64,000 nucleotides of DNA, taken from NCBI RefSeq assembly GCF_000970025.1, contig NZ_CP009528.1:2405168-2469167 (forward strand), written 5' to 3'. The notes under the pieces were generated by a model that was given only the letters and a program-made list of their open reading frames with translations, did no database searches and was not told the origin of the DNA. The first letter of the stretch is position 1, and the number at the start of each line of letters is the position of its first letter. The translations under genes and the position numbers were made by a program. Positions 12,001-62,464 of the stretch are shown one piece after another. The stretch is from Methanosarcina barkeri MS (GTDB taxonomy: Archaea > Halobacteriota > Methanosarcinia > Methanosarcinales > Methanosarcinaceae).

Positions 12001-13377
12001 TTAGAATACAAGTCCCAGGTCTTCGAGCTTCTTCCTTGCTCCGTCGTAGACCTGCATGTACTCGTCAGTTGGTGTTACGGTCTTTACATCGTAACATTCC
12101 TGGAAGGTCTTTCCTGCTGGTGCGCTTGCGTAATTCTTCTCATAGAGTGCTACAAGCTTGTCGAGTATCACATTTACTTCTGAGATTTCCACACCTGCGG
12201 TTGCCCTTGCTACTTCTCCCATCATTCTGGCTTCCATACCTGTTGTCTTGTCGGTCACGACACCCTTTGCTGATGCTACTCCTGAGAGAATTTCTCTGCC
12301 TGAAGCTGTGTCGGTAATTGATTGGGCTGAAGCTTCTAGCAGGCACATCTCAGTGCATGGTCCTGCACATGGGTAGTACTGGTTACCTGACAGTATGTCC
12401 GTAAATTCGGAAATTGTTGCACATGCCCATCCTGCAATCATCAGTGTCTCTCTGGTGTTGGTTGAACCCCAGCGGATGTGTACAGGGCCGTCAAGGTGCC
12501 AGCTTGCACTGCTCATGAGAACAGCGTTAATGTGGGTTGCAACATCTACAATTGTTGTTTCTTCAATTCCGCCTGCATACCCTCCAAAGATCGGCATCTG
12601 TTCGTCCATAATGATATCACTGTTTGCAGTGTAGTGAGCAATAACTGAGATTGCATCGAGATCAATCTTGAGTTCACAGAGTTGCGAGACCTCGTGGCTG
12701 TCCGTGCAGGTCATTCCGCCGGCGCAGTCAGCGGAAATATTTCCCTGAGCGGACAGGGAAGTCTCTGGGCCCTAGACACCCATGCCAGGCCTACCCGCCA
12801 TGGCGCAAGCATTCTTAATTAGCCTTGTTTCGGTCTTTGCAGCAAGAACTTCATAAGGACTTTTTGGAATAGGCGCTTTTCCGCGTACTGTAGTCATTAC
12901 ACCGTTAACAATCGTGTCTACTTCCTTTTCCAGGGCATAGCTCATGTGAACAGGCATAAACACATCTTCGGAAATTGGAGAACCGGTAGGCCCACCCTGT
13001 ACGATTGGTTTTGCCTTGTCACCAACACTTCTCTTTCTTACATTGACGGCATCCCTGCCTGTACCGAGTACAAATTCTTTCTGCACGTTGTTAATTGCAT
13101 CCCATATTTCGTCTTCAGTGTACTTTACGATTCTGTGGGTATCGGTACAGTATATCCCGCACTCAAGCAGCATCTCAAATCCGGCTTTGAAGAGTTTTTC
13201 CATCATGTCCTTGTCTGTCGGGATAAACTCTCCCTTGAAGTCAAGCCCGTACTTCTGCTTGAGTTCCATTGCCTTCATTGGGATCTTCATGAGGTCCCAG
13301 TCGTCCAGAGTACACTTTTCTCCTACTTTTGCTCTGTCGTAGAAATCATAGCAATCAAAAGACTTTCTAAATGTCAT
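12001..13377 (-). CDS. mtmB: Monomethylamine methyltransferase MtmB, pyrrolysine-containing
   Basis: 458 residues when the in-frame TAG (complement of 12772-12774) is read as pyrrolysine at residue 202; the true stop is TAA at 12001-12003. The context GRPGMGV-O-GPETSLSAQG is that of known MtmB proteins, and the length equals the family's. The enzyme takes a methyl group from monomethylamine and gives it to the corrinoid of MtmC; Pyl sits in the TIM-barrel active site and binds the amine. GGGAGG stands 10 bases before the ATG, and only 19 bp separate it from the mtmC stop. A gene caller ignoring Pyl would split it into two ORFs (13377-12772 and 12714-12001). No mutation is seen in conserved parts. 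Confidence 0.98.
12772..12774 (-). other. In-frame UAG codon decoded as pyrrolysine
   Basis: Codon 202 of mtmB. Homology continues without change of frame on both sides (SLSAQGNISADC follows), which is the signature of Pyl insertion by tRNA-Pyl (CUA) and PylRS. The pyl genes are not in this window. Confidence 0.97.
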
Positions 13378-42889: not shown

Positions 42890-43593
42890 GTGGCAACACG
42901 AAAAAACGTACAGGACTATGAGCTCTCCGACGAGTTCTGGACTAAAACCAAACCATTCTTACCTCTTCCTAAACCTAAAAAGAAACCTGGAAGACCTATA
43001 GTCATGAGGATAAATAATGCAACTACTCAATAAGGTACAATGAGCTTTTGTTGCAATAACTACAGGCGTGACTATAGAAAAGATGATAAGAGAATCTTGA
43101 GTGGTATTTTCGATCTTCTTCATACTGGCTGCCAATGGAAATCTTTGCCACGATTTTATGGAGCTTCAAGTACTGTCCATGATCGATTTCAAGAATAGCA
43201 AAGATCCGGATTATTTGAGAACATGTGGAAAGCTGGTCTACTGGAATGCGAGCATAAAAATGGATTATAGTGGGAGTGGCAAGCACTTGACGGTGCTATG
43301 ACAAAAGCACCATTAGGTGGAGCTGGGATCGGATATCAGAAAATTGGTTAAAGAATATGGTCATACTGCCCATATTAAAAGCCGTGGAGAAGAAAACATA
43401 AGAATAGAGAGACCAAGTTTTAGGGCAAGAAGATGGGTTGTAGAAAGGACATATTCCCTGGATAAACAGATTCAAAAGACTGCTTATAAGATGAGAAACG
43501 AAAATCGAGAATTACTTTGCTATGCTTCATTTCACATGCGCATGGATAACATTCAAAGCAGCAGGACTTTTCGGATATGTTCTTAGTCTTTGA
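42890..43593 (+). pseudogene. Decayed IS5-type transposase gene
   Basis: Reading across frames: VQDYELSDEFWTKTKPFLPL, then KKKPGRP | RKDDKRILSGIFDLLHTGCQ, then WKSLPRFYGASSTVHDRFQ, WQALDGAMTKAPLGGAG, HIKSRGEENIRIERPSFRAR, RWVVERTYSLDKQIQ and a C-terminal ITFKAAGLFGY. This is the order of a DDE transposase of the IS5 group. There are several frameshifts, an internal loss after GGAG, and a 76 bp insertion between the GRP and RKDD codons. Inactive. Ends of the element not identified. Confidence 0.85.
42999..43074. mobile_element. 76-bp TIR element (family A) inserted in the IS5 transposase, with TA duplication
   Basis: Begins TAGTCATGAGG and ends GCGTGACTA, so the ends are inverted repeats TAGTCA/TGACTA. 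It is flanked by TA at 42997-42998 and 43075-43076. Removing the element plus one TA restores the transposase codons CCT AGA (Pro-Arg in GRP-RKDD). A copy with the same interior (ATAATGCAACT, TTGTTGCAA, TACAGG) is at 62388-62464. TA duplication is typical of the IS630/Tc1/mariner group. Confidence 0.85.
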
Positions 43594-62387: not shown

Positions 62388-62464
62388 TAGTACAAGGCTA
62401 AATAATGCAACTGCTCAAATGAGATACAATGGGATTTTTGTTGCAACAATTACAGGTGTGACTA
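62388..62464. mobile_element. TIR element family A, copy 2
   Basis: Interior CTAAATAATGCAACTGCTCA, TTTTTGTTGCAAC and TTACAGGTGTGACTA matches the 76-bp element at 42999-43074. Right end TGACTA followed by TA is kept; the left end (TAGTACAAGG preceded by AA) has changed by a few bases. Confidence 0.75.

Follow-up and report, generated by a model that had tools for sequence, protein, structure and literature searches.

A dead transposase gene of the IS5 family in Methanosarcina barkeri MS is interrupted by a short segment flanked on each side by TA, which raises the question of whether this segment is a mobile element in its own right and, if so, which enzyme moves it. The window, the whole stretch of 64,000 nucleotides that was analysed (NZ_CP009528.1, positions 2,405,168 to 2,469,167), contains two copies of the segment. 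The small contig of this genome matches the plasmid of M. barkeri 227 at 99.9% over 73% of the 6 kb used as query, which makes M. barkeri the probable host. Compared with an intact relative of 272 amino acids (L152:928-1746), which matched NF033580 transpos_IS5_3 (E 6e-79) and also PF13340/PF01609, the IS5 gene is broken by in-frame stops and an internal deletion in addition to the insert. The features are given below in window coordinates.

42890..43586, plus strand: dead IS5-family transposase gene carrying copy 1, split in the window; start set by alignment to relatives
42999..43074, plus strand: MITE copy 1 (A type), 76 bp, with a TA outside each end
42997..42998, no strand: left TA of the 2-bp target duplication of copy 1; empty sites have a single TA
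43075..43076, no strand: right TA of the target duplication of copy 1
42999..43023, plus strand: left 25-bp terminal sequence, putative transposase-binding end; the A-type consensus matches the IS630 partner at 20/25 (right end) and 19/25 (left end)
43050..43074, minus strand: right 25-bp terminal sequence, putative transposase-binding end; the A-type consensus matches the IS630 partner at 18/25 (right end) and 17/25 (own-genome left end)
62388..62464, plus strand: decayed B-type MITE, copy 2, 77 bp, flanked by AA (left) and TA (right)

Copy 1 reads TAGTCATGAGG...CAGGCGTGACTA and, together with its two TAs, spans 42997-43076, in agreement with the preliminary description, which had placed a 76-bp element with flanking TA inside a dead IS5-type transposase gene. 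The element is 76-78 bp long and without genes, and its two 25-bp ends are alike at 18-19 of 25 positions. Each terminal sequence (about 25 bp) starts with TAGTCAC, followed by five variable bases and then TAAATAATGCAAC, with 26-28 bp of filler between the ends. Across 61 copies the ends were more conserved (mean identity by segment 0.89-0.96) than the middle (0.80). The second copy that had been claimed is real and its coordinates were right, but it is decayed: one base is missing from its left end and, with TA on the right side only, it shows no target duplication. Elsewhere in the window, a PYLIS_1 pyrrolysine insertion element was found on the minus strand at 12675-12774 (103 bits), where a pyrrolysine-containing gene is expected.

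When the dead IS5 gene was searched against the genus, the relatives retrieved aligned as far as the edge of the insert and continued beyond it without a gap. The relatives in G004 (L152/L178) and G008 (L154/L179) read CCTGGAAGACC-TA-GAAAAGATGATAAGA with one TA, and the joined-flank junction in the same four loci is GGAAGACC-TA-GAAAAGATGAT. Thus, the window carries 78 extra bases, that is, 76 plus one TA. The codons for GRP-RKDD, which precise removal of the element had been predicted to rejoin, run undisturbed through the single TA in these relatives. The same segment inside intact IS5 relatives would have argued for an original part of the gene; the insert is absent from all 14 of the relatives' IS5 loci that span the junction (12 distinct places, two being counted twice). 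One disruption within the window is explained in this way as a mobile insertion.

Counting of copies in the genome and its relatives had been proposed as a check. A BLAST search with copy 1 as query retrieved 22 copies from its own genome at E 4.4e-12 or better, the next match having E 0.09, and comparison of 400-bp flanks revealed that the surroundings of these copies are unrelated apart from two short matches. A chance repeat is therefore ruled out. The copies fall into two main types, A (76 bp) and B (78 bp); a pattern search added two older, diverged copies outside the 22, at C2:210032-210112 and C2:1602413-1602493. When the 17 of the 22 copies that fitted the pattern used were compared for identity, L002-L005 proved to share one and the same 76-bp sequence at four sites, and two copies each were found of three B-type sequences. 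At genus level, 14 of 30 genomes contained relatives of the MITE; the figures were 19 of 111 for the family and 19 of 237 for the class, where some matches are marginal (27-31 bp, or 71-72% identity). Among these genomes G029 holds 23 copies, G004 nine and G020 one. A 20-base exact pattern led to full elements in three of ten genome-collection stretches, two from Methanosarcina spelaei (L180, L188) and one from a Euryarchaeota MAG (L189). In the other seven, and in six stretches from viral contigs, the same pattern met the AT-rich inner block only or nothing more, and no element. A looser search for ends with one mismatch gave 62 hits against 62 in the reversed control, which is background level and carries no weight here.

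Individual copies showed further variation. In L018, from the M. barkeri MS genome, a B-type MITE is accompanied by an 11-base partial end, and L061 from G004 has an A-type MITE at the same chromosomal site; replacement, re-insertion or an excision scar are alternative accounts of this difference. The right flank of L006 has the right end ACAGGCGTGACTATA repeated directly beside the copy. In G013, a deletion derivative with about 52 bp between its TAs (L129:1764-1819) lies downstream of a DDE_3 match, some 150 bp away.

TA was found on both sides of 15 of the 22 own copies and of 51 of 62 copies over all loci analysed, the latter being near-full-length matches with duplicates removed and some shared ancestral sites included; in the remaining 11 (about one in six) it is missing from one or both sides. 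A TA duplication had been claimed, with copies lacking TA flanks as the observation that would speak against it. The claim holds for copy 1 and is borne out by the 51 of 62 copies with TA on both sides and by the single-TA empty sites; copy 2 does not show the duplication, and 11 of the 62 depart from TA on both sides. An own copy of the MITE, L021, is flanked by AA on both sides, and a copy of the IS element described below, L125, by TT on both sides; from these two sequences, TT/AA would seem to be used occasionally as target in place of TA. Besides the IS5 locus, two further sites are polymorphic for the insertion, which makes three clean empty sites in all. At the L005 site, G004 and G020 have a single TA and no element; G001 likewise has no element there, but AA replaces the TA. 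The L002 site lies between two long open frames; G004 and G029 lack the element there, with the same junction bases, as do more distant genomes, with local changes.

A full IS630-type element with the same ends had been suggested as the thing to look for, and one was found in the same genome. DDE_3 occurs there four times, and one of these places, L089, is a TA-flanked element of 1,075 bp (L089:922-2000, TAs included) encoding HTH_23 (PF13384) and DDE_3 (PF13358), with matching 25-bp ends that read TAGTCACCGTATTATATAATGCAAC and TAGTCACCATTTTAAATAATGCGAC. The halves of its transposase, two half-ORFs, match NF033545 transpos_IS630 at model positions 2-136 and 145-299; comparison of the DDE half with solved structures gave a weak match to Sleeping Beauty transposase only (E 0.0096) and adds little. 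Related full IS copies are present in G002 (five, of which four are identical and one has three differences and TT/TT flanks), and further copies in G008 (two, identical), G027 (one) and G011 (one, interrupted). The G002 and G008 copies lie at different sites with TA/TA flanks, or TT/TT in one case. In the only full own-genome copy, the transposase is split between two frames at a run of eight A. In all ten full or nearly full copies of the IS630 partner (L089:922-2000; L107; L121-L128) the HTH and DDE halves are in different frames, joining at a run of 7-9 A. Since identical split versions occur in multiple copies, the arrangement is more suggestive of slippage or frameshifting along the run of A than of simple decay.

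The MITE resembles this IS630 partner over only about 25 bp at each end. Its left end matches the IS ends at 19-20 of 25 positions, with equal spacing, and its right end at 16-19 of 25. Beyond the first seven bases, the A-type left end agrees with the IS right end at 13 of 18 positions, a score that 15 of 200,000 shuffled versions of the MITE stretch attained; the weakest of the pairings compared, that of the B right end with the IS right end, gave 10 of 18, attained by 1,342 of 200,000. A 27-base end pattern was applied to 33 DDE_3 loci (L088-L120): four carried it with 0-1 mismatch and one with four, and 28 were without such an end, having 6-8 mismatches like 15 shuffled loci. The pattern fits the MITE left end and the partner IS group.

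MITE ends read TAGTCACG, with G at position 8 after TAGTCAC, whereas in the complete partner copies the sequence is TAGTCACC or a slight variation of it, mostly with C. Among the matches listed, there was no full-length IS with the G-type end, and none of eight regions around lone ends (L216-L223) contained a longer element with TAGTCACG ends. Five of these regions were short copies, ordinary or diverged; of the other three, L216 contained the remnant of a chimeric IS630, L220 a copy that is cut off and L223 a lone end that is weak. The chimera (L216:1782-2031, G002:C2:78081-78330) is 96% identical to the partner IS over its last 250 bp, and its upstream half comes from another IS630. Its outer right end is identical to the B-type left end at 23 of 25 positions, pointing either to G-ended partners, present or past, or to recombination between the ends of IS and MITE.

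The element is dispersed in multiple copies, has single-TA empty sites and a 2-bp duplication, has its ends in common with one IS630 group and bears signs of recent movement. It is a real, near-minimal MITE that was probably recently mobile. We consider it very probable that it belongs to the IS630/Tc1-mariner type and consists of two transposase-binding ends around a spacer of 26-28 bp, moved in trans. In this scheme, the terminal sequences of about 25 bp would each bind transposase, enclosing the filler; the IS630-family enzyme would be supplied in trans by the 1,075-bp partner, and it would cut the MITE out and insert it at TA, whereby TA is duplicated, presumably by cut-and-paste chemistry. 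An IS630/Tc1/mariner-type enzyme acting in trans had already been proposed, and it gains support from the copy number, the empty sites and the IS630 element with matching ends. To judge from sequence likeness, the transposase of the partner group is the most likely mover. Movement in trans is made most likely by the end requirements of ISY100, by the MITE consisting of two such ends and by their better conservation than that of the middle. According to the published account of ISY100 (Synechocystis, IS630/Tc1-mariner), the transposase alone suffices, inserts almost only at TA and duplicates it; 30 bp of each end give full activity, and ends of about 24 bp are thought to be sufficient in cis, the repeats matching the footprint (PMC2170065). 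As described there, ISY100 resembles the IS630 partner and the MITE in the duplicated TA, the short ends and an N-terminal HTH and C-terminal DDE domain, but differs in being bacterial, autonomous, encoded in a single frame and tested in vitro (PMC2170065).

Several observations argue against a simple pairing of this MITE with this IS. The MITE-rich genomes G029 (23 copies) and G004 (nine) hold IS fragments only, and in G020, which has one copy, no match to the IS was found; the own transposase is split, 11 of 62 copies are without full TA flanks, and position 8 is G in the MITE as against C in the complete IS. It is possible, if somewhat doubtful, that the true mover is another IS630-group element with TAGTCACG ends, unsampled or extinct, and that the IS found is a cousin which may or may not cross-mobilise the MITE. 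The consistent G in the MITE ends, the MITE-rich genomes with mere IS fragments and the G-type right end of the G002 chimera would all fit such an element. Position 8, however, lies in or beside the variable spacer, and the ten IS copies themselves differ at positions 6-13. Spacing and inner block agree between MITE and IS, and the IS or its remnants occur in 13 of 14 MITE-bearing genomes as against 8 of 16 others, although these genomes are not independent.

A chromosomal RNA-hairpin or regulatory repeat, ERIC- or BOX-like and kept for host function, is a very improbable alternative. As single-stranded DNA the consensus does fold better than shuffles (z -4.5 for the A type, z -3.0 for the B type; more weakly, z -1.0, for the window copy folded with the frame shifted by two bases), but the terminal inverted repeats alone could produce this fold. 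Moreover, copies lie in a gene and at sites that are empty in close relatives, conservation is at the ends and not in the middle, and no Rfam family matches. The single-TA empty sites and the identical copies at unrelated sites largely refute this reading. A tRNA-related origin was rejected after search. That the segment is native to the IS5 element deserves practically no credence: the insert-free relatives rule it out, and copies occur at 21 other sites.

The 76-bp element is unusually small, yet it falls within a known class, the MITEs, and is not categorically new. Other MITEs come close to it in length: Sulfolobus SM1 is about 80 bp long, with ISC1048 as its partner. By their description, the SM1-SM4 MITEs of Sulfolobus solfataricus (Redder et al. 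2001, cited in the review PMC10969869) are likewise archaeal, multicopy and non-autonomous, SM1 being similarly small, but they are set apart by another phylum, other ends and another partner IS. The tables of Kamoun et al. 2013 list a Methanosarcina mazei MITE linked to ISMma9 (IS630), with 89 bp, five copies, IR 16 and DR 0 (PMC3852290, section 16, Table 4), and the same paper reports two M. barkeri MITEs linked to IS5 and IS1634. The M. mazei MITE belongs to the same genus and IS family, is similar in size and is conserved at its ends only; compared by description, it differs in length (89 versus 76-78 bp) and in that no direct repeat is reported in that table. To call the element among the smallest imaginable was therefore an overstatement, given this MITE of 89 bp (PMC3852290) and the derivative of about 52 bp in G013. 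In the literature searched, we found no description of the 76-78 bp family, which may nevertheless be in print.

With about 26 bp between its ends, the element may not be long enough to bring them together in the manner of the standard Tc1/mariner complex, so that a sharply bent or cruciform substrate would be used, or the ends of two copies would be paired. We regard this as rather unlikely; if true, the short-spacer element would offer a naturally occurring test of how short a substrate the Tc1/mariner transposase family can move. The near-minimal MITE and its candidate autonomous IS630 partner form a matched pair in a culturable, genetically tractable genus, and hence both the minimum size for transposition of the Tc1/mariner type and the cross-mobilisation of MITEs in archaea become directly testable.
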